Of a DNA stretch of 57,085 bases, positions 4,626-29,903 are shown piece by piece. Below the pieces are notes generated by a model. That model worked only from the letters and a program-made list of their open reading frames with translations. It ran no database searches and was not told the origin of the DNA. A program made the translations under genes and the position numbers. Origin of the DNA: a virus; the IMG/VR virus record IMGVR_UViG_3300044645_002658, positions 1 to 57,085 of that record. One strand, 5' to 3'. Each line of letters begins with the position of its first letter. The stretch's first letter is position 1.

Positions 4626-4651
4626 ATTATTTTTTAGAATAATATAATTGT

Positions 4652-5731: not shown

Positions 5732-5732
5732 T

Positions 5733-7551: not shown

Positions 7552-8276
7552 CTATTTTTCATCAATTGGAATCCTTTATTAATATAATTGACAAAAGTAT
7601 CGGACATAATTTTCAAATTGTCAAAGTTCATCGATATAGCTGCAGAATCTTGTCCGATGGACCATGCAGTCATTGGAATACTTCCCCATTTATCAACTTG
7701 GTTTTTGGGGTGTGGAGGAACAAAAGTTTTTTTACCAAGGTACTTTTGTAAAGTGTATGAAAAATGCATGTCTTCACCAACTAAAGTCGATTGTTCAATC
7801 GAGGGTAATTCTCTCCAAAAAGTTGATAACCACTCTCGTCTAAAAAACCATGCGTGACCAACAATATCCACTTCTTCAACCTGTTCGTTCGGTTGTGCCC
7901 AACCATGTCTGACATGAGGTTGATAACCTGTCTCAGATAAAAATTTGACACCAATAGTCCCAAGTAATCCATCGTGAGTTTTAATAGTTTCCAAACAATT
8001 TTCTAACCACTTAGGACCAGGGATTGTATCGTCATCAAAAACACAAATGTACTCGGTCTTAGCATTTAGTGCAAAGGCAAATCGAGCCCAAACTCCTAAA
8101 TTCTTATTACAAGAAGCGTGAGTAGTCTGTGAGGTCAATTCTGATTTGAAATCTTCTCCAAAGTTTTGCCACAAAAGAATTTCATCAGGTTGAACTGTTT
8201 GACGTTTTATAGCATCAAGTTGTGTCTTCAAGTGAGCACCTCTTTTATATCCATTTAAGACCACTGTAACACTCAT
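7548..8276 (-). CDS. GT2-family glycosyltransferase
   Basis: A 242-residue GT-A fold glycosyltransferase. It opens VTVVLNGYKRGAHLKTQLDA, a typical GT2 start, and AIKRQTVQPDEILLWQN follows the xQTxxPxEIxVxDN pattern. YICVFDDDTIPGPKWLENCL has the metal-binding DDD/DxD motif. A C-terminal REWLSTFWRELPSIEQSTLV and VGEDMHFSYTLQKYLG fit the acceptor-side GEDxxLS motif. There is no membrane anchor. It overlaps both neighbours by 4 nt (ATGA), so it should be made with the UDP-GlcNAc 2-epimerase upstream. Donor sugar unknown. Confidence 0.85.
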   Translation of the reverse strand: MSVTVVLNGYKRGAHLKTQLDAIKRQTVQPDEILLWQNFGEDFKSELTSQTTHASCNKNLGVWARFAFALNAKTEYICVFDDDTIPGPKWLENCLETIKTHDGLLGTIGVKFLSETGYQPHVRHGWAQPNEQVEEVDIVGHAWFFRREWLSTFWRELPSIEQSTLVGEDMHFSYTLQKYLGKKTFVPPHPKNQVDKWGSIPMTAWSIGQDSAAISMNFDNLKIMSDTFVNYINKGFQLMKNR

Positions 8277-9256
8277 AGTTGTTCTAATATTTTAATAATT
8301 TTTTCTGATGAAAATCCGTCACCATACGGGCATTCATAATCTACTTTATAATCATAAATTAGCCTGTCAAATAATAAACTTAATTCATTGTGGGTTGGAC
8401 ACAAATAGGAATGAATATTCAATGACTCAGTTCGTTCAGTAACTTTACGACAAACAATTACTTTTTTGTTAAAAAAAGACGCTTCTTCCTGAACCCCACC
8501 ACTATCAGAAATTAATAATTTACATCGTTTCATTGTTTCGATAAATTGGTCATGGTTCATGGGTTCAACAACCTCTACATTTTGTAAAAGGTGTTTGTGT
8601 TTTTTTACCATTGGATTTGGATGAATTGGTAAAATAAAACGAAGTTCAGGGTATCGACTGGCAATTGAATCAATTTCTTTGAACCAATTTCCCATTTCTT
8701 CATGGTTTTCGCGTCTGTGTAGGGTTACTAAAACTATATTATCGTAACTCAGATTTTCCTTGTCTAAATTATCCAATACGGTATTACCGACAATATAAAT
8801 TTCTCCACCCACTTTTTCATCATGTAAATTATTTGCATTTGTGACTGTAGGACATAGGTGAATATCGGCAATTCTACTCACAAATTGTCTGTAAGACTCT
8901 TCAGGATATGGATTCATTTTATCATAGGTTCTGAGACCGGCTTCTAAATGAATAACTTTGATACCTCTATGGAAAGCGGCCAATGCAAGGGCAAAGGCCG
9001 ATGCGGTATCTCCTTGTACTAAAACATAATCAATCCCTTGTAAACACTCATTAATTCCGTCAGAAAGTATTGATGATACAATTGTGTCAAGTCTGTTGAG
9101 TCCGTTCTCAATATCAAGTTTGAAGTCAAAATCTCCCAAAACAATATCTTTGTGTTGGGCAGTGTACAAAACTTTGTGAGGAATATTACCAGAAAGAGAT
9201 ATCAATTTTTTTATCTTGATATACTCGGGTCTAGTTCCGTAACAATATAAAATCAT
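8273..9256 (-). CDS. wecB: UDP-N-acetylglucosamine 2-epimerase (non-hydrolysing)
   Basis: A 327-residue WecB-type enzyme that interconverts UDP-GlcNAc and UDP-ManNAc. YCYGTRPEYIKIKKLI is the N-terminal GTRPE signature. VLVQGDTASAFALALAAFHR, VIHLEAGLRTYD, NPYPEESYRQFVSRIAD and VTLHRRENHEE supply the Asp, two Glu and His residues needed for catalysis. ISDSGGVQEEASFFNKKV and VCRKVTERTES form the UDP-binding loop. It is shorter than the usual 370-380 residues. It lies two bases downstream of a UDP-sugar dehydrogenase gene. Together they could make UDP-ManNAcA (WecB-WecC logic), which is inference. Confidence 0.93.
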   Translation of the reverse strand: MILYCYGTRPEYIKIKKLISLSGNIPHKVLYTAQHKDIVLGDFDFKLDIENGLNRLDTIVSSILSDGINECLQGIDYVLVQGDTASAFALALAAFHRGIKVIHLEAGLRTYDKMNPYPEESYRQFVSRIADIHLCPTVTNANNLHDEKVGGEIYIVGNTVLDNLDKENLSYDNIVLVTLHRRENHEEMGNWFKEIDSIASRYPELRFILPIHPNPMVKKHKHLLQNVEVVEPMNHDQFIETMKRCKLLISDSGGVQEEASFFNKKVIVCRKVTERTESLNIHSYLCPTHNELSLLFDRLIYDYKVDYECPYGDGFSSEKIIKILEQL

Positions 9257-9258
9257 AA

Positions 9259-10425
9259 TTAGAAATGGATTGATATCCCTTCGGGTTTAGACCCTTCGGT
9301 GTAGAATTTTACCCTATTACCAAAATCATTTGATAATTCCGACAAAAGTTTTCTGTCATTCAAAATGTAATCACACTCAATGATATTAACAGAATACCCG
9401 TCATTTAATAAGTCATACATTAATCTCAATTGTTGTGATTCAACCAACATATCAGTTCCCTTTTTATAGGTTATATGATTCATAACAAATGGTACATTTT
9501 TGTCGGGATTAATTGTTTCCCAATGGTTTCTCAAGAATTGTGAGTGACTTTCATTGAAATCATCAACTGCGTATGGAAGATTTACTTTGAGTCCTAAAGC
9601 TGATGCAAAGTGACCTAAAGCTCTATTATCTCGTGGTAAACATGGTCCACCAAATCCAAAACCATAATTCAAATATTTGAAACCAACTCTCGAGTCATTA
9701 CCTATTGAATGTAATACCAACTTAATTTCATCAGACAAACCAGCGCTTGTTAGAATTTCACCAATCAAATTGGCATAACTAATTTTGGTGGTTAGAAAAC
9801 AATTTATTGATATTTTTGTAACTTCCGCAGCCATTGACGACATTGAATTAATCTTAACAGGTATTGTTTGAATTTTAGAATATATCTTAGAGAGGGTATT
9901 CACACTATTTTGATTAGTTGACCCAATCAAAACCATATCGGCCTGTTCCAAACCTTTGATAATTTCACCTTGAGCTATGAATTCTGGATTGTAACAAACA
10001 TCAATATTCATTGGATTCAAAATATCCATAATTTTTCTTGTATCACCAGGATTGGTTGTGCACCCAATAACAAATATTTTTCCAAAAACAGGTATTTCGT
10101 TTTCAAATGCCCAACCCCAATCATGCACAACATCCATTAAATACGTAATGTCGTATTCACCAGTTGGTTTAGAAGGAGTTGATACAAAGGTGTAAACAAC
10201 ATCACATTGTTCAATGACCTTCACATTATCTGTTGTTGCAGAAAATTTTGTGGTTTTTTGGAGTAACTCCAACACACCAGGTTCATTGGTCTGAATTAAT
10301 TTTTTATTCAAACCATCGATGTAATCTTGTCTTACGTCTGAAACTAATACATCAAACCCTGCTTGTTCACAGAGTAGTGCAAAAGTTATCCCTAATCGTC
10401 CAGCACCAATAACTCCTATTTTCAT
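9259..10425 (-). CDS. UDP-glucose/UDP-ManNAc dehydrogenase family protein
   Basis: A 388-residue nucleotide-sugar dehydrogenase, which oxidises C6 of a UDP- or GDP-sugar with two NAD+. The N-terminal Rossmann motif is MKIGVIGAGRLGITFA. VYTFVSTPSKPTGEYD and CYNPEFIAQGEIIKG are family signatures. KISINCFLTTKISYANLIGE is the dimer and catalytic helix with its Lys/Asn. YGFGFGGPCLPRDNRAL holds the catalytic Cys. The last third (NAD-independent Rossmann domain) is present but diverged. The substrate is either UDP-glucose or UDP-ManNAc. The WecB neighbour favours the latter. Its start overlaps the NadE gene by 4 nt, so NAD+ supply and use are encoded side by side. Confidence 0.9.
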   Translation of the reverse strand: MKIGVIGAGRLGITFALLCEQAGFDVLVSDVRQDYIDGLNKKLIQTNEPGVLELLQKTTKFSATTDNVKVIEQCDVVYTFVSTPSKPTGEYDITYLMDVVHDWGWAFENEIPVFGKIFVIGCTTNPGDTRKIMDILNPMNIDVCYNPEFIAQGEIIKGLEQADMVLIGSTNQNSVNTLSKIYSKIQTIPVKINSMSSMAAEVTKISINCFLTTKISYANLIGEILTSAGLSDEIKLVLHSIGNDSRVGFKYLNYGFGFGGPCLPRDNRALGHFASALGLKVNLPYAVDDFNESHSQFLRNHWETINPDKNVPFVMNHITYKKGTDMLVESQQLRLMYDLLNDGYSVNIIECDYILNDRKLLSELSNDFGNRVKFYTEGSKPEGISIHF

Positions 10426-11189
10426 ACTCTGAAGGTAGGTATTGGTCTCATTTTATGAATATTTTTTTTGTGCCAAGATTCATAAATTTTCATAACTTCA
10501 TTTTCTTTTGAACTGAATTCAGTTTTGTATTGACCAATCTCCATTGCCCACTCCAATTCTTCGTATGATGCTCCAATTTGGTCTTCATCACTTCTGCCAT
10601 CGGACCACAACCCATCTGTTGGTTTAGCATCCAATATTTCTTTTGTTACTCCAAGATACTTGCCAAGTTCCCTAACTTCCGTTTTGTATAAGTCGGCAAT
10701 TGGAGATATATCAACACCACCATCACCATACTTTGTAAAAAATCCAACCCCATAATCCTCAACCTTATTACCTGTCCCAACTACAATTCCGTTTTGAGTT
10801 GTTGCTAAGTGATAAAGTGAAATCATTCTGAGTCTTGAACGAACATTTGCACTAGCTAATTCACTAGTGACGGTCATCGAAAGGGTGTCATCAAGTAATT
10901 TGAAAACCTCACTGAGTTCAATTGTAGACTTGGTGACATTTTCATATTTGTCTTGAAGTATTGAAATTAGGTTGTTAGCTCGAATTGTCTCTTCAACATT
11001 TTGACGAATTGGTAAAACAACTAAGTTTGTTGGTAATCCTGTTTCAGCGCAAAGAGATGATACGGTGGCACTATCGATACCACCTGACACACCAACAACC
11101 AAAGATTCGATATTGTTGGTGATACAATAATTTTTAATCCAAAGAACAATTTTATTGGATAGTTCTTCGTAGTCTATAAAACGGTTCAT
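10422..11189 (-). CDS. nadE: NH3-dependent NAD+ synthetase
   Basis: A 255-residue NadE that amidates deamido-NAD+ to NAD+ using ATP. The P-loop is VVGVSGGIDSATVSSL. VVGTGNKVEDYGVGFFTKYG and GDGGVDISPIADLYKTEVRE are the deamido-NAD and ATP sites, and PTDGLWSDGRSDEDQIGASY is the C-terminal signature. There is no glutaminase domain, so ammonia is the nitrogen donor. Length is as expected for NadE (about 245-275). It sits inside the sugar block, overlapping the NAD-dependent dehydrogenase by 4 nt and the GT fusion by 4 nt. Replenishing NAD+ for sugar oxidation, or under host NAD-depleting defence, are both inferences. Confidence 0.93.
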   Translation of the reverse strand: MNRFIDYEELSNKIVLWIKNYCITNNIESLVVGVSGGIDSATVSSLCAETGLPTNLVVLPIRQNVEETIRANNLISILQDKYENVTKSTIELSEVFKLLDDTLSMTVTSELASANVRSRLRMISLYHLATTQNGIVVGTGNKVEDYGVGFFTKYGDGGVDISPIADLYKTEVRELGKYLGVTKEILDAKPTDGLWSDGRSDEDQIGASYEELEWAMEIGQYKTEFSSKENEVMKIYESWHKKNIHKMRPIPTFRV

Positions 11190-12823
11190 GAGTTGATAGT
11201 TTGTAAATAAAGTTTATGTATTTGATTTGTAACGTTCTTCGAATCAAATTTTTCAAGTTCAGATTTTGTTGGTGGTTCAAATAATGTTTTCTTGTTGATG
11301 TGTCCTGAGGAATCCACATCGTAAATCCAAGAAGGTTTACCACAAAACCAACTTTCGATAGTGGTTCTACCCAACAAAATTCCTGCGGTGTATTTTACCC
11401 TGTTGATATATTTCTCAGTATTCCAAGTTGGTTGTAAATGTTTTACGTGAGAGTTTTGTAATAGAGAATCCAAATAATCTGACTTATTTTCACCAAGGAG
11501 CCATAATTCTAAATTTTCTGTCCGAGTTTGTTCGACCAAATCTTTGATTGAATTTTCTCTCAAATAATCAATCGTTCCTACAAATAAACAGGCGTTTTCT
11601 TCCTTTTGGTTTGAAGAACGAAATCTATCTGAATCAACTGGATTATACATTACTGAACATTGAGATTCATCTATTTGGTAAACATTTTCAATATGTTCTT
11701 TAATTTCAGGTCTAATACAGATATAGTGTTTGATTGAATCGTGGACAACAGGTTTTTCCAATTCAATTACCTCCGAGTGTATTGTGCTGATTTTATCAAT
11801 TTGAGGGTACAGATTGAGAAAATAATTTGTTATCGGTTCATGTTGTAGGTGAATAATATCAAAACTAATATCTGACACACGATACATGGTATTTGGTATT
11901 GAAGGTCCGATTCCGTTTGGACCCTCTACTAACCATTTTCCATCCCCCATCTTATAACCTGGAGGTTCCGATGTTGGGAAAACTTTTATACCGACTTTTT
12001 TCGCCATTTCTGTGAGTGGTCCTCCAATTTCTGAAACCACACTAACATCATGACCCATTTTGACCAAATTTTTCGACAATTCAAAGATATAAACTTCCGA
12101 ACCAGTAAAGTTTTTGAAAAACAAACAACCAATTAAAATTTTTAATTTATCCTTATCCGTTTTTTTAATTTTTACTGGAAGTAGAGATTCAAATTCTTCG
12201 GCAAAAAGTTTTCTATTGGCATCCCATTGTTCATTAGTCATACCAATGGACTTGTGGGTAATTTTAATGTCGAATACTACCCCAATTTTTACTTGTTCAA
12301 TGAAATTTCTAAAACAGAAATTAACATCGTAAAGGTGGAACCCTTTTACATTCTCATCAAAGTTTTTCTTAATTCTATTTTTGTGTAATGCAATAAATAA
12401 TCCATCAACTAAGACAGTTTCTTTGATTGAATTACCCAAGTTATCCGAGTATTTTGAGGTCCATTTTTTACCTTCATGTTCGTGGTTAACAATACCTATC
12501 ATTTTTGTTCTGTCTTCCCACCACATTCCACTCTTAGGTAGTTGAGTACTGCCAGCTACACCCAAAATCCCATAATCGGACCTTTTGAAGTGGTTCATAA
12601 TTTTTTGACCCCAATTGTTTGAATCAAAATAAATGTCGTCGTGACAAAGTATTACAATGTCAAATGTAGATTGCTCTAAGATTTCATTGTAAACCTCGGT
12701 TAGTGATTTACCATCAGGATTTACTACTTCAATTATCTGGGAATTGTGGACACCGGAACTTTTTCTGAAATATTCTTGTAGTTCAGGGTTTGTTTCTCGG
12801 GTACTATAAGCGATTGTAATCAT
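11186..12823 (-). CDS. Two-domain glycosyltransferase: GT2-like N-half, GT4-like C-half
   Basis: A 545-residue fusion. Residues 1 to about 220 resemble GT2-like proteins of the Glyco_tranf_2_5 kind: ITIAYSTRETNPELQEYFRK, IVILCHDDIYFDSNNWG (metal-binding DD), LGVAGSTQLPKSGMWW and the VDGLFIALHKNRI segment. From about residue 225 a GT-B domain begins (KILIGCLFFKNFTGSEVYIF), with ISTIHSEVIELEKPVV and a donor-site region near GILLGRTTIESWFCGKPSWI. The two parts probably add successive sugars. It overlaps NadE and the HAD phosphatase by 4 nt each. The domain order is clear, but donors and acceptor are unknown. Confidence 0.82.
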   Translation of the reverse strand: MITIAYSTRETNPELQEYFRKSSGVHNSQIIEVVNPDGKSLTEVYNEILEQSTFDIVILCHDDIYFDSNNWGQKIMNHFKRSDYGILGVAGSTQLPKSGMWWEDRTKMIGIVNHEHEGKKWTSKYSDNLGNSIKETVLVDGLFIALHKNRIKKNFDENVKGFHLYDVNFCFRNFIEQVKIGVVFDIKITHKSIGMTNEQWDANRKLFAEEFESLLPVKIKKTDKDKLKILIGCLFFKNFTGSEVYIFELSKNLVKMGHDVSVVSEIGGPLTEMAKKVGIKVFPTSEPPGYKMGDGKWLVEGPNGIGPSIPNTMYRVSDISFDIIHLQHEPITNYFLNLYPQIDKISTIHSEVIELEKPVVHDSIKHYICIRPEIKEHIENVYQIDESQCSVMYNPVDSDRFRSSNQKEENACLFVGTIDYLRENSIKDLVEQTRTENLELWLLGENKSDYLDSLLQNSHVKHLQPTWNTEKYINRVKYTAGILLGRTTIESWFCGKPSWIYDVDSSGHINKKTLFEPPTKSELEKFDSKNVTNQIHKLYLQTINS

Positions 12824-18414: not shown

Positions 18415-21400
18415 ATGGCGTATCAGAACATAAATCAGTATGTATATAATAAGTGGTATTTGAGTCCCGTTAGGGAGGTCACAGATATATCATTGGCCTC
18501 AGATGAGTCCCAATTTAACGAAGAAGTTGTATTTTCAACAGACGTTATTGGTGCCTCGAATGGTAATGTAATGCCAGTCAAAATTGATTTGAATTTTTCA
18601 GGTTCAAACCAAGGATTCAATTTAATATATCAAAACTATAATTTTGATAATATTTTGATTTCTTCAAACTACTATAATCCATATGACATATCTTTGGATT
18701 GTTTCTCTTCTAAAACTATTTGTGATATTGGTTTAACAGGTACTGACAATGGATTGGTAACAGGTATGACAGGTCAGTCTATCACTTATATGGAGGGTTT
18801 ACTTCCATCGGCAGACAAGTTCAACAGATTGGATTATGATAGAAGATTCAAAATGCACCAAGTTACAGGATATACTTGGAATCCAAACGAAAGATTTTCA
18901 GGTGTTACTGCAGGAACATATTATAACATAGTTTCATACACCGCAAACACAATCGGAACATACCATGAACTTTATGGTGGTTTTTATCAAGGGTTTTATA
19001 AACTGTTTGGATACCCATATGAGGTTTTACCAACAAGATATCCAAAAGGATGGACTGTCGAAATGACCCTGAAACCAAGATTTACTGATGCTTACATCCC
19101 TCCTGTTGGAGCAACAACTCTAAATGACTATTACCCTGATAATTCAGGTATTTTCTTTTACATGGGAACTCGTGCCGAGAATAAATATTGGCACCATGCG
19201 GCTGGAGAAAATCCGACAGATTCTGGATATACAAGGGTTACAGAATCTTTGACAGGATTATCCTCTTGTATGTGTTCTACTCTGAATCCTGGGTATAGTA
19301 CAGTTTCTTACACTGAATTTGATTTATCTCAGTCAGGGGTTACAATATCCATTCCAGCGAATTTAAGTTGGTCGGGTGGTGACCAAATTTTAGTTTACCA
19401 TGACCCACTACAATATGTTATAGGGACTGTTCTAAACTATAGTGCCTCTACCGGTGAATTACAATTTACAGTAACCAAGAGAGTTGGAAAAGGTAATTTT
19501 CATGCATGGGTTGTAGACCTTCCGGATTACTTAGATTATGCTTTATCTAACTGTGTTTTGGTATATCCACCAACTGGCTATACTGACTATCACAACGTTG
19601 TTTGTAGTTGTTGTAATCCAAATGTCCAAATACCTTTACCTGAAAGACCTGCTTATTGGGACTCCATCTCAAACGCCTTCGCAATTAAATTTAGTGGAGA
19701 CCCACATAATCCAAAAATTTGTGTTAGAACATTAACGTTTACTGGCGACTGCCAACTTTCAGGGTCTTGTGAAACGTTGGGGCCTGAGACTGTAACAGGA
19801 TACTCAATCAATAATTATTGTAGTGATAGGGGTATATATGATGATTGTTCTGGAACTACATTTGACAATATAGAACATTGGGTATTAGTTGACGCTGTTT
19901 TCGAAAGATATTCATGGTTTGATTTCTGTGATTTATATTGGAGAGGGGGGTTAGGTGTAATAACTAATGACATTTACACCGCCACGTCCGCAAATAGGTC
20001 CATATCACTTATTGAACCACCCATAACTCATGAACAATTAATTCCGCCAAAAGAAGAATATGTTCAATTGAATTATGAATGGTTATTAGAACGATTCTAT
20101 AGAGTTGGTAAGTTAAAACTGTATGTTAATGGAAAACATTTTCAAACTTTTGACGATTTTGAGGAAATAATTCCAAGAGGATTATATGGACATAAAGAAA
20201 ATCAAGTTGGAGTCCCATTTAATATTTCTTGGGGTGGAGGTACACAGGGATTACACGAGAATTTGATATTTTCGGCGATTCCAACTACGTTAATTAACAA
20301 TTATATTCAAGACCCTGAGTTATTTCCTGAAAATATTTTAAGTGGAACTAGTTTGAGTGCCTTAACTACAAATATATTAATTGAACAAAATTTTGCTGGA
20401 ACTTTTGATGGTGCAATTTCTACATTCCACATGTATGCAAAACCACTTTCAGTTCCTGAAATTCAACACAACGCAAGAATTTTAAGACCAATCTATAGTC
20501 TTACGAACCCATATTGTTTGGATTGTTCTATTCCTCCAACTCCAAGTAATGCGGCAACCCCGACCCCTACTCCAACGATAACTTCTTCACCAACTCTTAC
20601 ACCTTCAAATACCGTAACCCCAACCAAAACAGCGACTAATACGCCGACGCCATCCATAACACCGACTAATACGTCCACACCTCTTGTTACAGAGTCAAAT
20701 ACTTCAACCCCAACAGAAACACCGACGAACACTCCAACCCCTTCGATAACCACATCTATTACACCAACACCAACAAAAACACCGACTAACACTCCAACAC
20801 AAACGGTCACTCCGACTGCAACTGTAACACCTTCGGCAACTCCTTTTGTTCCAACTTGTTTGATATTGTACGATGAAGGGTTTTCATATATTGCCCAATC
20901 TTTAGGTATCCTTAATGGAAAACCATATTGGGAATATTATTTTGGTTATGGGGTTATAGAACTTTACCGTCTATATTGGGACGGAACACAATGGGTTCAA
21001 GAATTGTTGTCAAGTTCAACCATAGTCGCCACAAACCCAAATGGTGTGAATTTTCCAACCCAATTAGATTGGGTTGGGTCAGGATTTTCTTATGTACATT
21101 ACACTTCACAACAAGATTGTAATGATTGGTGTATAGACCCTGCTTTAACAGATTATTTATGTTCTGTAAGTGGCACGACCGACAATGGGGATATAAACGG
21201 GAAAAGGTCATTTACATTTGATATTATCCCTTATGGATTACCACCAACTCCTGTTGGTTATACTTTGTATTGGGATGGAGCACAATGGATACTCGAGAAT
21301 GAATTTGGTAGTATCTGTGCCACCTCTTCTTATAACACCTTTGCTCCGCCATCTTATTTCTTATGGTCTTACCCCTCTCCTGCTCCTGTAGATTGTGATT

Positions 21401-21963
21401 GTGTAGATGGAATTTCAGGTGGTTTTTCCGCAGGAGTTTATAGTGGTGAGTGTGACCCATCAATTTCTGGTTTCCTGTTTTGGAGTGGGGATTACAATCC
21501 AGGTTCTTTACTAACGGAATATAATGTATGGTCACCATTCATCTTAGACGCTAATTTAACGGTGAGTTGTGACGCAATATTCACCACAACAACAGGAGAC
21601 CCAATTACTCAAAGTGTTACGATGACAATACCTATTGGTGGATTTTCTGCCAATACATTTACTCAAACAATTGATACTCCTTATGATGTGTTTACTCAAG
21701 ATGTGGTATTCGAGGGTTTTGTAACTAATTTATCTGGTGATTCTGTGTTCACAGGATTCACAATTACTACACAATCAACTTGGGCACCGAGTCCGTCTAA
21801 CACACCAACCAATACTCCTACAAATACTGAAACACCAACTCAAACGCCAACCAATACAATAACTCCTACAAATACCGTAACACCAACTCCAAGTCAGACA
21901 CCAACACAAACCTCTTCAGAGACTCCAACCCCCACCCCAACAGTAACATCAACACTTCTTTAA
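18415..21963 (+). CDS. Large tail fibre/adhesin-like protein with mucin-like Thr/Pro tracts
   Basis: A 1182-residue, probably virion-surface protein. The first 700 residues are beta-rich with many Tyr, Gly and Asn and several Cys clusters ([20 protein letters not shown]). The segment ending [20 protein letters not shown] resembles the end of a LamG/concanavalin-type domain, suggesting carbohydrate binding. Residues 705-812 are a Thr/Pro/Ser-rich tract of TPT and TNTPT units. A second globular region (about 815-1120, with two LYWDG.QW repeats) follows, and residues 1125-1182 are another Thr/Pro tract running to the C-terminus. No signal peptide is seen. It is followed by six sugar-modification genes, so the tracts may be glycosylated. 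Assignment as a fibre is inference from size, composition and context. Confidence 0.75.
20527..20850 (+). repeat. Thr/Pro-rich mucin-like repeat tract (internal)
   Basis: Imperfect repeats of ACN-CCN codons encode about 108 residues dominated by Thr and Pro with some Ser and Asn (for example [16 protein letters not shown]). Synonymous codons vary between units, which argues for selection on the protein rather than recent DNA duplication. The tract links two globular regions of the fibre-like protein. Confidence 0.9.
21787..21960 (+). repeat. Thr/Pro-rich mucin-like repeat tract (C-terminal)
   Basis: A second tract of the same composition encodes the last 58 residues (for example [20 protein letters not shown]) and runs to the stop codon. 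It lies directly ahead of the GT60 gene, with 126 nt between the fibre stop codon and that start. Confidence 0.9.
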
Positions 21964-21971
21964 GTGGAGGA

Positions 21972-22044
21972 ACTATTGTTGCACAACCAATAATTGTTTA
22001 ATCCTTCATAAGACCTATTTAGGTTGTTTTAATCAAACAATAGT
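21972..22044 (+). repeat. Nested inverted repeat in the gap before the GT60 gene
   Basis: The 126-nt gap 21964-22089 holds ACTATTGTT (21972-21980) pairing with AACAATAGT (22036-22044). Inside that, ACAACC (21983-21988) pairs with GGTTGT (22022-22027). A direct repeat ATTGTTTAAT occurs at 21993-22002 and 22058-22067. No T-run follows the outer arm, so a simple terminator is unlikely. A leader or 3'-end RNA structure is possible. I see no TATTTAT motif in this gap. Confidence 0.4.
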
Positions 22045-22089
22045 ATTCAACTTTTAGATTGTTTAATTATTTTTTTGAAAAACTTTTTC

Positions 22090-23337
22090 ATGAAAATATT
22101 TGTGCAAATTGCGGCTTACCGTGACCCCCAACTTATACCAACTATAAAGAATATGTTGGAAAACGCTAAAAGACCAAAGAATTTAAGGTTCGCGATAGCG
22201 AGACAATTTCATCCTGACGACAAATTTGATGAACTAACAGAATACGAAAAAGATTCACGATTCAGAATTATGAACATTCCTCACGAGGAGTCGAATGGTG
22301 TCTGTTGGGCTAGAAATTTGACCCAACAATTATATGATGGTGAGGAGTATACTCTTCAAATTGACTCTCATATGAGATTTGCTCCTAATTGGGATGATGA
22401 AATGATTAAGATGGTTAAACAACTTCAAAAGAAAGGTTATAAAAAACCTCTGTTGACAGGATATGTTTCATCTTTTGACCCCGATAATGACCCACAAGCA
22501 AGAGTACAGGAACCATGGAGAATGGTTTTTGACAGATTTATTCCTGAAGGAGCCGTATTTTTTCTACCCGAAACTATTCCTGGTTGGAAGGAGCTAAAAG
22601 AGCCAGTACCGGCTCGTTTTTATTCGGCACACTATTGTTTTACTTTGGGACAATTCTCAAATGAGGTACAACACAATCCTGAATATTATTTCCATGGTGA
22701 AGAAATTTCAATTGCGGCAAGAGCATACACTTGGGGTTATGACTTATTTCACCCTCATAAAACTTTGATTTGGCACGAATACACTCGAAAAGGTAGAACC
22801 AAACAATGGGATGATGATAAACAGTGGGTTGACAAAAATAATCATTCACATTTGACAAATAGGAAACTTTTTGGTATGGACGGTGAGACACAAGAAGGTC
22901 ATGATGGTCCATTTGGATTTGGTACGGAAAGAACCCTCAGAGATTATGAAAAATATTCAGGTTTGTTATTCGAAAAAAGAGCTGTCCAACAATATACTTT
23001 GGAAAAACATTATCCACCTAACCCTTATAATTTTGAATCGGAAGAAGAGTGGAAAAAACATTTTGCATCGGTATTCAAACATTGTATTGATGTTGGATAT
23101 TCTTCGGTTCCTGAAACAGACTATGATTTTTGGGTTGTTGCATTCCATGGACCAAATGATGAAACATTGTTCAGAAAAGATGCCGACAAAAATGAAATTG
23201 CTCGTATGAAAAACGACCCTGATGGGTATTGTAAAGTTTGGAGAGAATTCCAAACTGAAACTAAGCCAGTTTATTGGGTTGTGTGGCCTCACTCAGAATC
23301 CAAGGGTTGGTGTGACCGTTTAACAGGTAATTTATAA
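22090..23337 (+). CDS. GT60-family polypeptide GlcNAc-transferase homologue
   Basis: A 415-residue glycosyltransferase matching the GT60/PF11397 family. It opens KIFVQIAAYRDPQLIPTIKN, has GVCWARNLTQQLYDGEEYTL and then LQIDSHMRFAPNWDDEM, where D92-S-H94 is the family's metal- and donor-binding DxH. GEEISIAARAYTWGYDLFHP and HPHKTLIWHEYTRKGR complete the core. About 120 further residues at the C-terminus are unassigned. Known GT60 enzymes attach alpha-GlcNAc to hydroxyproline of Skp1 in Dictyostelium and to Thr of mucins in Trypanosoma cruzi, so they act on proteins. The neighbouring Thr/Pro-rich fibre is an obvious candidate acceptor (inference). A TTG at 22075 extends the frame by five residues; I chose the ATG. 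Confidence 0.87.
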   Translation: MKIFVQIAAYRDPQLIPTIKNMLENAKRPKNLRFAIARQFHPDDKFDELTEYEKDSRFRIMNIPHEESNGVCWARNLTQQLYDGEEYTLQIDSHMRFAPNWDDEMIKMVKQLQKKGYKKPLLTGYVSSFDPDNDPQARVQEPWRMVFDRFIPEGAVFFLPETIPGWKELKEPVPARFYSAHYCFTLGQFSNEVQHNPEYYFHGEEISIAARAYTWGYDLFHPHKTLIWHEYTRKGRTKQWDDDKQWVDKNNHSHLTNRKLFGMDGETQEGHDGPFGFGTERTLRDYEKYSGLLFEKRAVQQYTLEKHYPPNPYNFESEEEWKKHFASVFKHCIDVGYSSVPETDYDFWVVAFHGPNDETLFRKDADKNEIARMKNDPDGYCKVWREFQTETKPVYWVVWPHSESKGWCDRLTGNL

Positions 23338-23338
23338 G

Positions 23339-24103
23339 ATGGAAGTTTGTTTTGTTGCGGATTGTCATTATCCAAACTACACAAAAAGACTTAAATCCAA
23401 TCTCCTCCAAACATTTATTGATTTGGAGTTGGATAAATATGGTTTTACTTTTTTGGTATCAACAAACAGACCTGAAGATTTTCAAGACATCGTAAACGAC
23501 AAAATACATGTTTTTCATATTGATGAACTAAGAAAAGATTTTCCAATTTCTAAACAATATGAAACTTTACCTGAAGACCCATCAGGAATTTATCCTGCGG
23601 GATTTCATTGGGGCTTGGAGCGTTTTCTTTTGAAAAAGGCTGCTGATATGGGATTCAAATGTGTTGTGAATTTTGACTCAGATGTGATTTTGAATAATCT
23701 AAAATCGGGGAATAATCTATTGGACTTTTTTAAGAAGAATTATCAACCAAACATAATCATGACCAATCAAGCAACGATGTTGTATCAAAAAGGTTCAGAG
23801 AATGAAATATTTTATTTGCATGACAAGTATATAAATCATTTTGGTTTGGATTTTCAAGATTCTGAATATACAACGATGGACGGTCCGGTAATCTGTTATA
23901 TGGGTGAAACTTCAGAGGATTTGCAAAGATATTTTAGAAATTGGAATGAGTTAACTGAATTCAGTTATAAAAAAGAACATGGGTATGGATATGGTGGTAT
24001 TGTGTGTGGGATTTGGTCCTTAACAATTCCGATGTCGGGTTTCAAACTTAAATGGAATGAAATGCCGTTCGTACCCCATCACGTTTATTCAGATAGGTAT
24101 TAA
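23339..24103 (+). CDS. Putative GT-A-like glycosyltransferase with DSD motif
   Basis: A 254-residue protein. It begins MEVCFVADCHYPNYTKRLKS, has a glycosyltransferase-like centre FHWGLERFLLKKAADMGFKC followed by VVNFDSDVILNN, whose DSD could bind the metal-nucleotide sugar, and an HxxY-type end (FVPHHVYSDRY). Overall it looks like a GT-A fold enzyme of the GT8 or GT32 kind, but I cannot name a family. It starts one base after the GT60 stop codon and is followed by the GT25-like gene at a TAATATG junction, so it belongs to the same transcription unit. Confidence 0.6.
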   Translation: MEVCFVADCHYPNYTKRLKSNLLQTFIDLELDKYGFTFLVSTNRPEDFQDIVNDKIHVFHIDELRKDFPISKQYETLPEDPSGIYPAGFHWGLERFLLKKAADMGFKCVVNFDSDVILNNLKSGNNLLDFFKKNYQPNIIMTNQATMLYQKGSENEIFYLHDKYINHFGLDFQDSEYTTMDGPVICYMGETSEDLQRYFRNWNELTEFSYKKEHGYGYGGIVCGIWSLTIPMSGFKLKWNEMPFVPHHVYSDRY

Positions 24104-24104
24104 T

Positions 24105-25634
24105 ATGTTTAAGATATTAGGAAGAGAATTAGGAGAAAAGGGTTTCTTCGTTAACTTGGATTCATCAATCGATAGATTTGAAGGAATCATGAAACAAGTT
24201 GATAAATTTGAAATTGAAGGGTTAGAAAAGTTTTCAGCTTTGAGTGACCCTTTAATTCAATTTGCATGCACCAAAAGTCATTTGGGTATTTTTGAAATTG
24301 CAAAAAATGAAGGTTTGGAAACAATCGTTGTTTTGGAAGACGATATGCAGATTTTGGAAAATCCTTATATCGGTTCACAGAAATTTGAATTATCTGAACA
24401 ATTGGATAAATTGTTGGTTGATATGAACAATCTTGAATGGGATGTCATTTTATTGGGTTGCAATCCAAAAACCTATTTGATTCCTGTTACAGAAAATTTA
24501 TCAGAAAACTATTCAAGTAGTGGTTCATGGGCGTATATCATCAAACGTAAAGCTTATGAATACATTCTTGAAAATTCAAATTATTATAAAGATTATATTG
24601 CTATTGATGATTGGTTGGCAAAATTGGCTCATAATGGATTCAAAGTATTTGCCACGACACCTCAAATAATTCATCATGGTACAAGTTATCAATCAACATT
24701 ACAACCAAGAGGTTTGGTAAATTATACCGCGTGGATTGATGGAAATTGGGAAGGTTATTTATACAAGTTCCTTCAAGGCAGAACCATGAAAGAGTTGGTA
24801 GATGATTATGAATTAGAAAGAGAAATTACAATTGTTGTGGTTGGCCATTTCGTCGAAAACTTTTTATTCTATCTTCGATACCTCCTAAAAACAATACCGA
24901 AACAATTGGAAAGATGTCGTTTCTTGGTTATCTATGATAACAATCACAACACACAGAACCCATTACCTTTGGAATACTATTTCAAAGACCGTAATAAACC
25001 AATGAACTACAATATCATTTATTCCAAAACCGGTATTTCTCATAGTATGAAGTTGGCTTTGGAAAATGTTAAAACAAAATATTTTTTATTTTTAGAACAC
25101 GATTGGATTTTCTTGGAAAAAAGACCGATTGACTTTGTTAGTTTGAAAAGAGCTTTTGATAATCACAATTTTGTAAATGCGGTGTGGTTTAATAAAGACG
25201 ACAATCAATTGAAGGGATTTGAAATTTGTGGAGATAGATTGGGTAACGTTACACCTTATGAACAAGAAGACCGTGTGACCGAATGTGATTTGACAAAGAC
25301 AATACGTTGGTCAAACAATCCTGTGATGTTTAGAAAATCAAAAATGCAAGAATGGTTTGATAAATATATAGATAACGATTCAATCGGTAAAATTCACCAA
25401 GGACAGTATAATGTTGAGGATAATATGATTCGAGTTTATAGACAAACAATTGAAGAAAGTGTTTGGGAAGAAATTAAAGATGATTGGGGAACATTTTTAC
25501 ATGGCAAACCAGGTGATTGTGAATTAGTTGGTCACACAGATGGCTCAAGAAGATACCAAACGTCAATTAGAACTATGGCCGAAGATAATGCCGATGAATA
25601 TGTAAAAAATAATCCTTTACCTGAAAATGATTAA
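24105..25634 (+). CDS. GT25-GT2-like fused glycosyltransferase
   Basis: A 509-residue two-domain protein. Residues 1 to about 230 follow the GT25 (LPS beta-galactosyl/collagen glucosyltransferase) pattern: GFFVNLDSSIDRFEGIMKQ, ACTKSHLGIFEIAKNEGLET and VVLEDDMQILENPYIG with the EDD metal motif near residue 76, then SGSWAYIIKRKAYEYIL. From about residue 239, EITIVVVGHFVENFLFYLRY starts a second GT-A-like domain with FLFLEHDWIFLE near residue 331. Two activities in tandem suggest a disaccharide-building enzyme. The frame is open from 24057, inside the upstream gene. I chose the ATG at 24105 because it follows the upstream stop as TAATATG and begins the conserved sequence. Confidence 0.8.
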   Translation: MFKILGRELGEKGFFVNLDSSIDRFEGIMKQVDKFEIEGLEKFSALSDPLIQFACTKSHLGIFEIAKNEGLETIVVLEDDMQILENPYIGSQKFELSEQLDKLLVDMNNLEWDVILLGCNPKTYLIPVTENLSENYSSSGSWAYIIKRKAYEYILENSNYYKDYIAIDDWLAKLAHNGFKVFATTPQIIHHGTSYQSTLQPRGLVNYTAWIDGNWEGYLYKFLQGRTMKELVDDYELEREITIVVVGHFVENFLFYLRYLLKTIPKQLERCRFLVIYDNNHNTQNPLPLEYYFKDRNKPMNYNIIYSKTGISHSMKLALENVKTKYFLFLEHDWIFLEKRPIDFVSLKRAFDNHNFVNAVWFNKDDNQLKGFEICGDRLGNVTPYEQEDRVTECDLTKTIRWSNNPVMFRKSKMQEWFDKYIDNDSIGKIHQGQYNVEDNMIRVYRQTIEESVWEEIKDDWGTFLHGKPGDCELVGHTDGSRRYQTSIRTMAEDNADEYVKNNPLPEND

Positions 25635-25635
25635 T

Positions 25636-26190
25636 ATGAAAAATTTAGAAAAAATTTATAAAGAACACTGTGAAAGATATTCAGACATACAAGAACATCT
25701 TCCAACATTAAAAAAATACACTGAAGAATGTGAGCACGTAACAGAAATGGGTGTAAGATATGTTGTGTCAACTTGGGCGTTTATGATGGGTAAACCTAAA
25801 AAATTAATTTCGATGGATATCTTACCCTTGGAACATTTTGATATAAAAACTGAGGATTTAGTTCAAATTGCAAAAGATAACGGAGTTGATTTTGAATTCA
25901 TAGTTGCGGATACAACAAAAGTAGAAATTGATGAAACCGATTTGTTATTTATCGATACATGGCATGTGTATCAACAATTAAAAGTAGAACTCGAAAAACA
26001 TGGTAACAAATCAAGAAAATATATCATCATGCACGACACCACTATTTTTGGTGAAGTTGGTGAAGGTCGTGAAGGTTTAGGACTGTGGAAGGCTATTGAA
26101 GAATTTTTAGAGATTAATCCACATTGGTCGGTTCATGAAAGATACACTAACAACAATGGATTAACTATTCTGAAAAGAAATGGAAATTAA
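25636..26190 (+). CDS. Class I SAM-dependent methyltransferase-like protein
   Basis: A 184-residue Rossmann-fold methyltransferase. CEHVTEMGVRYVVSTWAF is the SAM-binding ExGxx motif. ISMDILPLEHF ends strand 2 with an acidic residue. FEFIVADTTKVEIDETDLLF and FIDTWHVYQQLKVEL resemble the cephalosporin hydroxylase/Methyltransf_24 group, as does IIMHDTTIFGEVGEGREGLG. The likely role is O-methylation of a sugar in the glycan made by the neighbours. An in-frame ATG at 25627 overlaps the upstream gene. The one at 25636 repeats the TAATATG junction seen upstream. The next gene overlaps its end by 11 nt. Confidence 0.75.
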   Translation: MKNLEKIYKEHCERYSDIQEHLPTLKKYTEECEHVTEMGVRYVVSTWAFMMGKPKKLISMDILPLEHFDIKTEDLVQIAKDNGVDFEFIVADTTKVEIDETDLLFIDTWHVYQQLKVELEKHGNKSRKYIIMHDTTIFGEVGEGREGLGLWKAIEEFLEINPHWSVHERYTNNNGLTILKRNGN

Positions 26191-27601
26191 TTTTATTATA
26201 ACCTGTTTTGATAAAGAAGAATATTGGCCACATTTGAAAGAAATTTTAGATTCTTTTTCAAAAATTAAACCTAACTATGTTCTTGTGTATAATGGAGAAA
26301 ATGAAAACTTTATTTGTGATGCAAGATTAAAAAATGAAGTCAATGCTGGAAGAGGGAATAGAGCACATGAACATGCTTGTCTTTATGCGGAAAATGATTG
26401 GTTTTTAACTAAACAGGGTTATGATTTATTGAAAGATAATGGAGTTACTAAATGGATAAAATTATCCGTAGACAGTTGGATGTTGGACGAACAGATAATA
26501 ATTGATTTGTTTCAAGAAATGTTACAAACAAAGTCTGTTTATGGTGGTAATGTTTGGTATAGTCCTATAAACTATTCTACAGATATTTTTTTCTTAGAAA
26601 CTTCTGAAATAAATTTATTTGAGGAAATGTCCAAAAATAGTGAAGAATTTTTTGGTTTTTTATATAGAAACGAAATACCAACAGGTTTTGAAAATTTTAT
26701 GAGCTATCACGTAATACCTCACAATCATCTAATTTTTCTTGACAGGGAAGAATTAGATGAGTCGTCTACTCGATGGAGAGTTGAAAAGTTGGGTTGGACA
26801 ATGAGTCACCAAATTGATGAAAATCATGATTTTAGAAAAAAATACAAACCAATTGGGTATAAACCAAAAACTTTATTAAGAGAAGGTAATGGTATTCCCT
26901 ACTCGAGGAAATTTTATTTGGAAGACACTGGTTTAATAAATAGACATAAACTTGTTTTGGGATTAGGGCACCCAAGGACTGGTACTGGTCATACGGCGAG
27001 AATTATGAAAAGTTGGGGATTGAGAGTTTCCCACGAAGGAATGGATTTACATGGAATTGTTGCGTGGCAATTAGCTCCTGATGCGGCACCACCTTTGATT
27101 GCCATGAATCGGGAACGTAAATTATTTAGAAATATGTACGTGTATGACGCTATTGTCTATAACGTTCGAGACCCTTTTTATTCCTTACCTTCGATTGCCT
27201 TTTCCGAAATATATTCTTTGGAATGGAGAAGTTTTTGGGGAAACTTCAAACTACAACCGAACATTTTGACAATGGCAATCGAATCACTTCTTTCTTGGGA
27301 CAATATGATTATAAATAAAAATCCAAATATTACTTATCGTATAGAAGACCAAGATGATTACTTATATCGTGAGTTGGAAAAATTATTTCCGGATGTGGTC
27401 AAATGGACCGATTTAGAAGTTAATAAAGCACACAACTCACGACCACATGATGGTTGGGATAAATTATCTGGTTTCATATCAGACGTTCCACATCATTTAT
27501 TAGAAAAATTAAACGACTATGCCGAAAAGTATGGTTACCAAAAAGTTTTTAACACACAAACATATGAACTCGAAAATACAAGAAGCGTATCACTTTCATA
27601 A
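26180..27601 (+). CDS. GT-A-like domain fused to a sulfotransferase-like domain
   Basis: A 473-residue protein with two parts. The N-terminal 240 residues (INFIITCFDKEEYWPHLKEI, NAGRGNRAHEHACLYAENDW, WIKLSVDSWMLDEQ) look like a nucleotide-sugar or sugar-binding GT-A fold. From about residue 257 the pattern is that of a PAPS-dependent sulfotransferase: LVLGLGHPRTGTGHTARIMK is the 5'-PSB P-loop, and IVYNVRDPFYSLPSIAFSEI near residue 329 is the 3'-PB motif with its Arg and Ser. A sulfated or otherwise capped glycan is therefore plausible. PAPS would have to come from the host, since no PAPS synthesis gene is visible here. It overlaps both neighbours. Confidence 0.65.
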   Translation: MEINFIITCFDKEEYWPHLKEILDSFSKIKPNYVLVYNGENENFICDARLKNEVNAGRGNRAHEHACLYAENDWFLTKQGYDLLKDNGVTKWIKLSVDSWMLDEQIIIDLFQEMLQTKSVYGGNVWYSPINYSTDIFFLETSEINLFEEMSKNSEEFFGFLYRNEIPTGFENFMSYHVIPHNHLIFLDREELDESSTRWRVEKLGWTMSHQIDENHDFRKKYKPIGYKPKTLLREGNGIPYSRKFYLEDTGLINRHKLVLGLGHPRTGTGHTARIMKSWGLRVSHEGMDLHGIVAWQLAPDAAPPLIAMNRERKLFRNMYVYDAIVYNVRDPFYSLPSIAFSEIYSLEWRSFWGNFKLQPNILTMAIESLLSWDNMIINKNPNITYRIEDQDDYLYRELEKLFPDVVKWTDLEVNKAHNSRPHDGWDKLSGFISDVPHHLLEKLNDYAEKYGYQKVFNTQTYELENTRSVSLS

Positions 27602-29903
27602 TATTCAAGTAGATGGTTCAATCATCAACCATAATCAAATTTTCAGTATAATTGAAAACCTTTCATCTGTTTTAGAACAAGGGTTGCATGGTGATATTGT
27701 AGAACTTGGTTGTTATGTTGGTGAATCCTCAAAATACATCCGTAAAACATTAGATGTTTATAATTCAAATAAAACTCTTACGGTCTACGATTCATTTGAA
27801 GGATTACCTCCCCTTAGTAAACATGAAGAAGGTACTGGTTGGAAACCATTTACCTTAAAAACAAGTCAAGAAGTTTTAATTGAGAATTTCAGGAATAATA
27901 ATCTTGTTGAACCGAAAATTGTTAAGGGGTGGTTCAAAGACATAAGGGAAGAAGATTTACCTGAAAAAATTTGTTTTGCTTTTTTGGATGGTGATTTTTA
28001 TGATTCAATTTATGATAGTTTGGTAAAAGTTTATGATAGAATGGTTGAAGGTGGTATAATCATGTTTCATGATTTCAGAAGAAATGATTTACCTGGTGTG
28101 GATGCCGCGGTACGTGATTTTTTTAGAGAAAGAGGTATTGAATATAACTTGGAAGAAGTTGTTGAACAAGTTGGTCGTCACATTGTTGGTGGACCTATCC
28201 CCCAAGAAACACAACAAATTGAAGTAGTAGATTCGGGTTTAACTTTAGTTACGGGTCTTTGGAACATTAGACGTGAATCACTAACCGAGGGTTGGTCACG
28301 TTCTTTCGAACATTATTTAGATAAATTTTCACAACTACTCCAAGTTGAAAATAACATGATAATTTTCGGGGACGTTGAATTGGAAGAGTTTGTTTGGAAA
28401 CATAGAACCCGTGAAAACACACAATTTGTGGCTCGGAATCAAGATTGGTTCAAAAATGAATTTTATGAGAAAATTCAAAAAATCAGAACAAATCCAAATT
28501 GGTTTACTCAAGCAGGTTGGTTGACTGAATCTACCCAAGCAAAACTTGATATGTATAACCCGTTGGTGATGTCAAAAATGTTTTTATTACATGATGCCAA
28601 AATAATTGATTCATTTAATTCGAAATACATGTTTTGGATTGATGCCGGTCTTACCAACACCGTTCATCCGGGATACTTTAGTCATGACAAAGTTTTAAGA
28701 AATCTACCGGAATATATTAACAAATTCAGTTTTGTATGTTTCCCATATGAAGCAAACAGTGAAATTCATGGTTTTGAGTTTAATTCAATTAACAAACTTG
28801 CGGGTAATAAAGTACAAATGGTTGCTCGTGGAGGATTTTTTGGAGGTCCTAAAGACACCATATCAGACGTAAACACAATTTATTACAATTTGATGTCTTC
28901 AACGTTATCTATGGGTCTGATGGGCACTGAAGAGTCCCTGTTCTCAATAATGTGTTACAAACACTCGGATTTAGTAGACTATTTTGAAATTGAGAGTAAT
29001 GGACTATTTGGTAAATTTTTCGAAGATTTGAAAAACAAAAACTTGGAAAGAAAAAACAAACTTTTGTTAACTCCATTAAATGATGATTTGAATGTCGAAA
29101 ATAGTGCTGTTTATGTAATAACATTTAATAGTCCAAATCAGTTTGAGACTTTGATGAAGTCAATGGAGTTGTACGATAGAGATTTTATTGATAAACCAAA
29201 AAAATTCTTACTCGACAACTCTTCGGACTTAACAACAACTCAACGATATGTTGAGCTCTGTGAAAAATTTGGATACCAACATGTAAAAATGGATAATTTA
29301 GGTATTTGTGGTGGTAGACAATGGATTGCTGAACATGCCGAAGAAAACGGTTTTGATTTTTATTTCTTTTTCGAAGATGATATGTTTTTCTATATGGGCG
29401 AAGATAAAGTCTGTAGGAACGGTTTTAATAGGCATTTGAAAAACATTTATACCAATTCAATTGAAATTGTAAAAAAATACCATTACGATTTCTTAAAATT
29501 TAATTATACCGAATTTTATGGTGATAACGGAGTTCAATGGTCGTGGTATAATGTCCCACAAGTATTTAGAGAAAAACATTGGCCCCATAAATCACAGTTG
29601 CCTGTGATGGGTACCGACCCAAATGCTCCAAGAAGCCAATTCAAAAATATTAGAGTCCACAATAATATTCCTGTCATCGATGGAGAAATCTATTATTGTA
29701 ACTGGCCTCAGGTTGTTACAAAACATGGAAACAGAAAAATGTTCTTAACGGACAAATGGGCACATCCATTTGAACAAACATGGATGAGTTATATGTTCCA
29801 AAAAACTATCGAAGGAACATTATCTCCCGCAATGTTATTGGCAACCCCAACTGAACACAATCGATTCGAATTTTACGATGGTTCCTTAAGAAAAGAATCT
29901 TAA
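27564..29903 (+). CDS. Triple fusion: TylF-like methyltransferase, HtrL/YibB-like domain, GT2-like domain
   Basis: A 779-residue, three-domain protein. Residues about 15-215 match TylF/MacF sugar O-methyltransferases: GDIVELGCYVGESSKYIRKT, VYDSFEGLPPLSKHEEG, KGWFKDIREEDLP and CFAFLDGDFYDSIYDSLVKV. Residues about 225-500 resemble HtrL/YibB proteins (LVTGLWNIRRESLTEGWSRS, NPLVMSKMFLLHDAKII, YMFWIDAGLTNTVHPGYF), a glycosyltransferase-like family often found in LPS loci. From about 513, VYVITFNSPNQFETLMKSME starts a GT2-like domain with FFFEDDMFFYMG near residue 604. The frame is open from 27519, but I chose the ATG at 27564, which begins nearer the conserved part and still overlaps the upstream gene by 38 nt. 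Confidence 0.78.
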   Translation: MNSKIQEAYHFHNIQVDGSIINHNQIFSIIENLSSVLEQGLHGDIVELGCYVGESSKYIRKTLDVYNSNKTLTVYDSFEGLPPLSKHEEGTGWKPFTLKTSQEVLIENFRNNNLVEPKIVKGWFKDIREEDLPEKICFAFLDGDFYDSIYDSLVKVYDRMVEGGIIMFHDFRRNDLPGVDAAVRDFFRERGIEYNLEEVVEQVGRHIVGGPIPQETQQIEVVDSGLTLVTGLWNIRRESLTEGWSRSFEHYLDKFSQLLQVENNMIIFGDVELEEFVWKHRTRENTQFVARNQDWFKNEFYEKIQKIRTNPNWFTQAGWLTESTQAKLDMYNPLVMSKMFLLHDAKIIDSFNSKYMFWIDAGLTNTVHPGYFSHDKVLRNLPEYINKFSFVCFPYEANSEIHGFEFNSINKLAGNKVQMVARGGFFGGPKDTISDVNTIYYNLMSSTLSMGLMGTEESLFSIMCYKHSDLVDYFEIESNGLFGKFFEDLKNKNLERKNKLLLTPLNDDLNVENSAVYVITFNSPNQFETLMKSMELYDRDFIDKPKKFLLDNSSDLTTTQRYVELCEKFGYQHVKMDNLGICGGRQWIAEHAEENGFDFYFFFEDDMFFYMGEDKVCRNGFNRHLKNIYTNSIEIVKKYHYDFLKFNYTEFYGDNGVQWSWYNVPQVFREKHWPHKSQLPVMGTDPNAPRSQFKNIRVHNNIPVIDGEIYYCNWPQVVTKHGNRKMFLTDKWAHPFEQTWMSYMFQKTIEGTLSPAMLLATPTEHNRFEFYDGSLRKES

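Follow-up and report, generated by a model that had tools for sequence, protein, structure and literature searches.

Why does a bacteriophage place a gene for a predicted polypeptide glycosyltransferase of family GT60 right behind a gene whose product carries long tracts of threonine (Thr) and proline (Pro)? The question is raised by IMG/VR virus record IMGVR_UViG_3300044645_002658, a viral record of 57,085 bases analysed here at full length (the window), which belongs to a contractile-tailed phage as indicated by its tail sheath, T4-type baseplate protein and family B DNA polymerase (PolB, used below as lineage marker with a match threshold of 1e-5). The original prediction had read the two neighbouring genes as a fibre and a glycosyltransferase forming a mucin-type O-glycosylation system that acts on the virion. 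We consider it likely that the phage encodes a cytoplasmic, GT60-initiated mucin-type O-glycosylation system, on the basis of the gene families and tracts observed, of the linkage between them across more than one lineage, and of the lack of tracts in GT60-negative controls.

The carrier protein (18415..21963, + strand, 1182 amino acids (aa), starting MAYQNINQY) indeed has the two long tracts that had been noticed: tract 1 at about aa 707-812 (20533..20850, + strand, ~106 aa) and the C-terminal tract 2 at about aa 1119-1182 (21769..21960, + strand, ~64 aa), both presumed acceptor regions. Thr accounts for 40%, Pro for 21.8% and serine (Ser) for 10.6% of the 170 tract residues, with Thr at 8.9% in the remaining carrier, and among non-overlapping open reading frames (ORFs) of at least 100 aa in the window, none but the carrier bears such a tract. 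The tracts draw on every one of the four Thr codons and the four Pro codons; the Thr codon shares are near those of 15 other window genes, CCG is enriched among the Pro codons (8/37 vs 6% in the same 15 genes) and CCT depleted, and Tandem Repeats Finder returned just 24-30 bp units with 58-63% match from the tract DNA. Since all Thr and Pro codons are in use and the DNA holds no clean tandem repeat, it seems to be the amino acid pattern as such that is maintained, and chance low complexity or DNA slippage was rejected as the origin of the tracts. The N-terminal region of about 690 aa is conserved in relatives and was matched in 37 of 83 loci; its 696 aa had no match among 50,697 phage records. 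The whole carrier matched no Pfam family above cut-off and a single weak PHROG of unknown function over tract 2, which leaves "fibre" a tentative name for a protein with no informative Pfam or PHROG family. Optional tracts were also observed in a second family, that of ORF 29929-30330, whose homologues L531:12074-13291, L534:15075-15818 and L071:13732-14310 carry added Thr/Pro or poly-Thr tracts, as does the weak (27%) homologue L526:22-2139.

The GT60 gene lies 126 bases downstream of the carrier gene, and no terminator-like or promoter-like site was found in this gap. Its ORF (22090..23337, + strand, 415 aa) starts at ATG 22090 or possibly at TTG 22075 and ends at 23337; both genes were confirmed at these coordinates. 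In a profile search it matched PF11397 with E=1.9e-65 and 222.1 bits (cut-off 21; best stretch at profile positions 95-350 of 352), and it matched phrog_24687, a PHROG called glycosyltransferase, at 4.6e-164, so the family assignment made at first sight holds. Residues D92 S93 H94 (22363..22371, + strand) form the DSH motif, presumably the GT60 family motif as labelled in the earlier note, and are retained in at least 83 of 84 aligned GT60 sequences, being among 152 columns in which at least 83 of the 84 agree. No part of the protein is strongly hydrophobic (hydropathy over 19 residues peaks at 0.88), and a PDB sequence search found no related solved structure. By profile the protein is a member of the UDP-N-acetylglucosamine (UDP-GlcNAc):polypeptide alpha-GlcNAc-transferase family, with the corresponding activity predicted. 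Previous studies showed that GT60 acceptors are polypeptides (PMC8724618; here and below, statements on the literature follow the available text of the papers cited) and that in protists the first sugar of mucin-type glycans is attached to Thr by GT60 enzymes (PMC8724618; PMC3769586); T. cruzi mucins, whose glycosylation a GT60-type enzyme initiates, are rich in Thr, contain Pro and have little Ser (PMC3769586).

Is the neighbourhood of tracts and GT60 meaningful? If the tracts were just flexible low-complexity linkers such as build up in large phages, the GT60 enzyme acting elsewhere, their association would be something inherited within few lineages. We scanned viral contigs with the window GT60, which gave 486 matching stretches, duplicates included, and analysed the best 80 of the 486, counting ORFs with a Thr/Pro tract of at least 40 aa as tract ORFs. 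Among the 64 loci with at least 2 kilobases (kb) upstream of GT60, a same-strand tract ORF lay upstream in 52 and immediately adjacent in 43, usually 55-130 bases away, and several loci had three or four tract genes. Merging GT60 proteins at 97% identity or more (65 loci, namely the 64 and L004 with 1,998 bases upstream) left 38 clusters, 33 of them with an upstream tract gene. The tracts pooled over loci contain 37% Thr, 20% Pro, 8% Ser and 6% asparagine. Moreover, a codon pattern for T-P-T-x-T-P-T, searched over the whole record, was found in 20 of 20 long GT60 records (chosen for length and spread, near-duplicates included) and in every scanned GT60 record of at least 50 kb; the four scanned records without it are 7.8-40 kb. 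The pairing of tracts and GT60 is not chance. The GT60 of one locus, L003, is identical to that of the window.

Among the 50,697 phage records, the window GT60 matched just XacN1, RAS14 and CM1, and XacN1 ORF334 is 47% identical to it. The window PolB matched 17 phage records, none of them these three, which were therefore counted as a second lineage. Matches to the codon pattern numbered 51 in XacN1, 22 in RAS14, 22 in CM1 and 0 in each of 14 jumbo-phage relatives (about one per kind, chosen from the listed XacN1 PolB relatives at 29-32% identity), and PF11397 was present by profile in XacN1, RAS14 and CM1 and lacking in all 14. In XacN1, tracts of at least 25 aa occur in 15 of the 20 ORFs examined around the pattern matches, 2,875 residues in total, and the tract ORFs ORF369, 370 and 372 come directly after the genes for the tail sheath and for sheath completion. 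When viral contigs were scanned with the XacN1 GT60, 17 matched, 14 of them with an XacN1-type polymerase in the flank; the pattern is present in 12 of those 14, the remaining two being 20 and 29 kb long. L433 (39.7 kb), whose GT60 is nearer that of the window (71%), lacked the pattern. In L435 and L436 the GT60 is just 37% identical to that of XacN1, the gene directly upstream encodes a protein with three tracts, and the flank holds a polymerase of neither type. GT60 relatives were also seen in bacterial genome bins (L437-L441: Saprospiraceae, Bacteroidia, Alphaproteobacteria, Gemmatimonadota); these may be phage contigs placed in the wrong bins, which would then give a clue to the hosts, and a Thr/Ser/Pro tract stood in the flank of L437 only.

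Two features of a mucin-type system were thus found, domains dense in Thr/Ser and Pro and, by profile and gene linkage only, an initiating GT60 transferase encoded alongside. The strong GT60 profile match, the tract survey and the jumbo-phage controls make the mucin-type link better than a guess from adjacency, and this part of the original prediction stood. The other part, that the protein is a fibre and the enzyme acts on the virion, remains a suggestion drawn by analogy from XacN1, where tract genes lie beside tail genes and at least two glycoproteins were reported by proteomic analysis (PMC5852040). The authors of that study suggested that the glycosyltransferases ORF328 and ORF334 may make these glycoproteins, and saw no tail fibres (PMC5852040). 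As the pairing recurs in large phages of another group, unrelated to the first, phages may well make their own sugar coat.

The association was also examined in the reverse direction. PF11397 was found on 12 of 50 contigs bearing the Thr/Pro codon pattern vs 0 of 50 contigs found with an arbitrary 14-mer and not lineage-matched to the tract set (Fisher p=1.2e-4), and, among contigs of at least 40 kb, on 11/31 vs 0/18 (p=0.003). The tract set comprised 50 of 120 Thr/Pro contigs, taken from the first 63 after dropping 11 under 17 kb and two known GT60 loci (L092, the record of L082, and L136, that of L007); the control set comprised 50 of 120 contigs, 30 picked for length and 20 taken in order, and totals 2.20 megabases (Mb) vs 3.27 Mb for the tract set. 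The tract Thr/Pro ratio was 1.86 with GT60 vs 1.25 without (p=0.0018; 67 vs 16 distinct tract strings), and the Thr and Pro shares also differed. Divergent PF11397 proteins of about 330 aa, 26-27% identical to the window enzyme, were observed on the tract-bearing contigs L532 and L533, one of them adjoined by a carbamoyltransferase homologue. Very long tracts were observed on PF11397-free contigs at L093:2493-5414, L133:7222-13844, L086:5793-8729 and on L106.

A second enzyme accompanies GT60. The tandem GT-A glycosyltransferase (28221..29900, + strand) consists of an HtrL_YibB domain (PF09612, 58.6 bits, cut-off 24.1) followed by a GnT-I/POMGnT1-like domain, and forms the last 560 aa of ORF 27519-29903, in which it is fused to a TylF-type methyltransferase domain (27519..28220, + strand; PF05711, 95.2 bits, cut-off 23; aa 39-214 of the 794-aa ORF). 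It was matched in 78 of 83 GT60 loci, some cut by the contig end, including XacN1, RAS14 and CM1 (38-42% identity; 42% for XacN1 ORF330), and at 80% coverage or more it was found in the same 3 of the 50,697 phage records as GT60, with weak and partial matches in three further records. In 22 chosen tract-bearing records it was present in 7 of the 12 GT60-bearing Thr/Pro contigs, in 0 of 9 GT60-free ones, and not in the record of L436. Its AlphaFold2 model (mean predicted local distance difference test (pLDDT) 88.4, predicted template modelling score 0.67) has two GT-A-like domains; the best fold matches of domain 1 are blood-group and BoGT6a-type transferases (Z about 13) and those of domain 2 are B4GALNT1, GnT-I and POMGnT1 (Z 13-14), a shared fold that does not give specificity. 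This enzyme, too, has no strongly hydrophobic segment (maximum 19-residue hydropathy 0.77).

Between the two enzymes lies a cassette (23339-27601, together with the fused methyltransferase domain). On the + strand it contains an ORF of 254 aa with no Pfam family above cut-off (23339..24103), a GT25-family glycosyltransferase (24096..25634; PF01755, 30.5 bits, cut-off 24), an ORF of 187 aa with no Pfam or PHROG match (25627..26190), and an ORF of 473 aa (26180..27601) likewise with no Pfam or PHROG match, whose C-terminal half resembles P-loop sulfotransferases by eye only; homologues of the 254-aa ORF and the GT25 gene are joined in one ORF of 1067 aa in L530. Over 92 loci the genes between GT60 and the tandem enzyme comprise 304 ORFs in 62 single-linkage clusters, 30 of which occur in one locus only. 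One cluster of no known family is present in 71 of the 92 loci, GT25 in 41 and every other in at most 13, and the families found among the representatives are GT25, GT10, sulfotransferases and a carbamoyltransferase.

Several observations weigh against a mucin-type system on the virion. No upstream tract ORF was found in 12 of the 64 loci (L044, L048, L052-L056, L057, L070, L071, L073, L074), 11 of which have tracts elsewhere on the contig, the exception being L044, a 7.8-kb fragment. GT60 is nearly universal in the window lineage, occurring in 38 of the 43 PolB loci that have 7 kb or more of upstream sequence (the other five, with no GT60 in the flank, may carry it further away), and XacN1, RAS14 and CM1 form one clade, so that few independent events are represented. 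PF11397 was absent from 38 of the 50 Thr/Pro contigs, among them 4 of the 12 contigs that reach 100 kb, and some of these PF11397-free contigs hold tracts of about 270-730 aa; tracts can therefore exist with no GT60 on the contig, and in such phages other enzymes may serve them or they may stay unmodified. Ser content and the Thr share of Thr plus Ser were the same with and without GT60, so composition separates the sets just partly, and the arbitrary contigs are a control not matched by lineage to the tract set. Five loci gave no match to the tandem enzyme; L062 ends inside GT60, and L040-L042 and L051 have none within 10 kb. The cassette, with one cluster in 71 of 92 loci, is not wholly variable. 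The AlphaFold2 model of the N-terminal 696 aa of the carrier (mean pLDDT 38) is unusable as fold evidence. Attachment of sugar to Thr/Ser of the tracts is predicted from sequence, the tract proteins would most likely be on the virion surface with the carrier placed there by conjecture, and the available main text on XacN1 leaves its two glycoproteins unnamed and contains none of the eight tract ORF names checked (PMC5852040).

Three of these points, the Thr/Pro contigs with no PF11397, the equal Thr share and the near-universal GT60, favour flexible linkers. Against linkers stand the joint presence of tracts and GT60 in two lineages with PolB genes that give no match to each other at 1e-5, the tract gene directly upstream of the divergent GT60 in L435/L436, the pattern in 0 of the 14 jumbo-phage relatives, and PF11397 on 0 of 50 arbitrary contigs together with a tract gene adjoining GT60 in 43 of 64 loci. 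We therefore regard linkers as an unlikely explanation.

The window also encodes a group of sugar genes on the opposite strand (2677-12823), which would suit a cassette that brings about superinfection exclusion by altering a receptor or the polysaccharide of the host surface, in the manner of the genes of serotype-converting phages. On the - strand these include a nucleotide-sugar epimerase (2677..3810, PF01370), a UDP-GlcNAc 2-epimerase family protein (8273..9256, PF02350, E=8.3e-68) and a UDP-glucose dehydrogenase-like protein (9259..10425, phrog_9148), which may supply donors, as well as a GT11-family glycosyltransferase (3795..4625, PF01531) and a two-domain glycosyltransferase (11186..12823, PF13712 and PF13439), which possibly extend the glycan. 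Yet GT60 acceptors are proteins (PMC8724618), GT60 sits with tract genes, and neither GT60 nor the tandem enzyme has a strongly hydrophobic segment, and we give modification of the host surface very little probability. An NAD synthase gene (10422-11189, PF02540, E=6.6e-51) was observed within the sugar-nucleotide group, and an NAD+ synthetase is likewise encoded in XacN1, at a distance of about 17 kb from the GT60 gene. A further ORF of 507 aa (34707-36230) contains the two domains of Fe/Mn superoxide dismutase (PF00081, PF02777) and seems unusual for a phage.

The enzyme that modifies hydroxyproline of Skp1 represents a branch of GT60, and the original prediction had named it beside the mucin branch. 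With tracts of about 20% Pro and the Skp1 glycan linked to hydroxyproline (PMC8724618), tract prolines could be hydroxylated and then glycosylated. This branch fared badly: a search for the prolyl-hydroxylase-type family PF13640, the only hydroxylase family searched, found it in 2 of 25 GT60 records (chosen for length and spread, near-duplicates included, most of them possibly fragments) and in none of XacN1, RAS14 and L003, and Thr exceeds Pro in the tracts. Thr is therefore the likelier acceptor, and a Skp1-like main route, which we consider highly improbable, was rejected.

TET-associated glycosyltransferases have been proposed to glycosylate modified bases of phage DNA. Such a role, favoured by weak matches of the tandem enzyme to PF20691 TAGT (24.4 bits) and phrog_842 (E=4e-6), is the least probable of all and was rejected, as the TAGT match lies below the curated cut-off of 27.5 and does not make it a family member, the domain concerned has B4GALNT1, GnT-I and POMGnT1 as best fold matches, GT60 enzymes act on polypeptides (PMC8724618), and the tract association would be left unexplained.

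For the mucin-type system we propose the following scheme, in which enzyme activity, acceptor residue, donor, order of steps, location on the virion and purpose are all conjectural. No clear membrane segment appears by hydropathy in either enzyme, and we presume that the reaction takes place in the host cytoplasm, before assembly. GT60, soluble in the cytoplasm, would place the first sugar on many tract threonines, probably as alpha-GlcNAc with UDP-GlcNAc of the host as donor, and the tandem GT-A enzyme would then add one or two more sugars. Exchangeable genes (GT25, fucosyltransferase-type GT10, sulfotransferase, methyltransferase, carbamoyltransferase) may cap and vary the glycan. Glycosylated in this way, the tracts could become stiff, hydrophilic, protease-resistant stalks or coats on the proteins that carry them.

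The closest known counterpart is protist mucin-type O-glycosylation (T. cruzi TcOGNT-2, Dictyostelium Gnt2), which uses the same Pfam enzyme family as the phage, acts on mucins that are likewise Thr-rich, Pro-containing and Ser-poor, and extends the first sugar by later glycosyltransferases, as proposed here for the phage (PMC3769586; PMC8724618). The phage system differs in being presumably cytoplasmic with no Golgi, in being known from genes alone, in the higher Pro content of its tracts (about 20% vs 6-11% in protist mucins), and in its added tandem GT-A partner and changing gene cassette. In the Skp1 pathway a cytoplasmic transferase acts on hydroxyproline and further transferases follow, one of them bifunctional. 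The phage system resembles it in that its first enzyme is presumably cytoplasmic and the next one has two transferase domains, but the phage has no regular prolyl hydroxylase partner and many acceptor sites instead of one, and its second enzyme matches other families. We know of no GT60 or Thr/Pro mucin tracts in mycobacteriophage virion glycosylation. That system likewise concerns phage virion proteins, with glycans at the C-termini of capsid and tail-tube subunits (Freeman et al. 2023, cited in PMC12619734). XacN1 shares with the window the same GT60 (ORF334), the same tandem enzyme (ORF330) and Thr/Pro tracts, and differs in lineage by PolB; the available text on XacN1 mentions neither the tracts, nor ORF330, nor a mucin-type mechanism (PMC5852040).

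Phage virion glycosylation is thus already known, and the XacN1 authors proposed glycosylation for the GT60 ORF334 with no mechanism (PMC5852040). Mucin-type O-glycosylation through a polypeptide N-acetylhexosamine-transferase has been described for animals and protists (PMC8724618). In searches that left out most subscription papers, we found no literature linking GT60 or PF11397 with phages, and, among the titles and abstracts listed, none on point about mucin-like phage proteins. If the mucin-type system proposed here is real, mucin-type O-glycosylation would be widespread among bacterial viruses (486 stretches matched in one viral collection, duplicates included), would run in the bacterial cytoplasm with soluble enzymes, and would account for the extended Thr/Pro tracts seen in these phages; it might also serve as a simple means of producing mucin-like glycoproteins in E. 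coli. Further, we see an even chance that large phages of unrelated lineages are covered by a true mucin coat. GT60-glycosylated Thr/Pro domains would then be present on many of their tail and surface proteins, and the swappable genes lying between the two conserved enzymes would vary the outer sugars (fucose, sulfate, methyl, carbamoyl) between strains. Such variation would parallel, in phages, that of O-antigens or mucins, and may govern adhesion, escape from decoys and proteases, or recognition.

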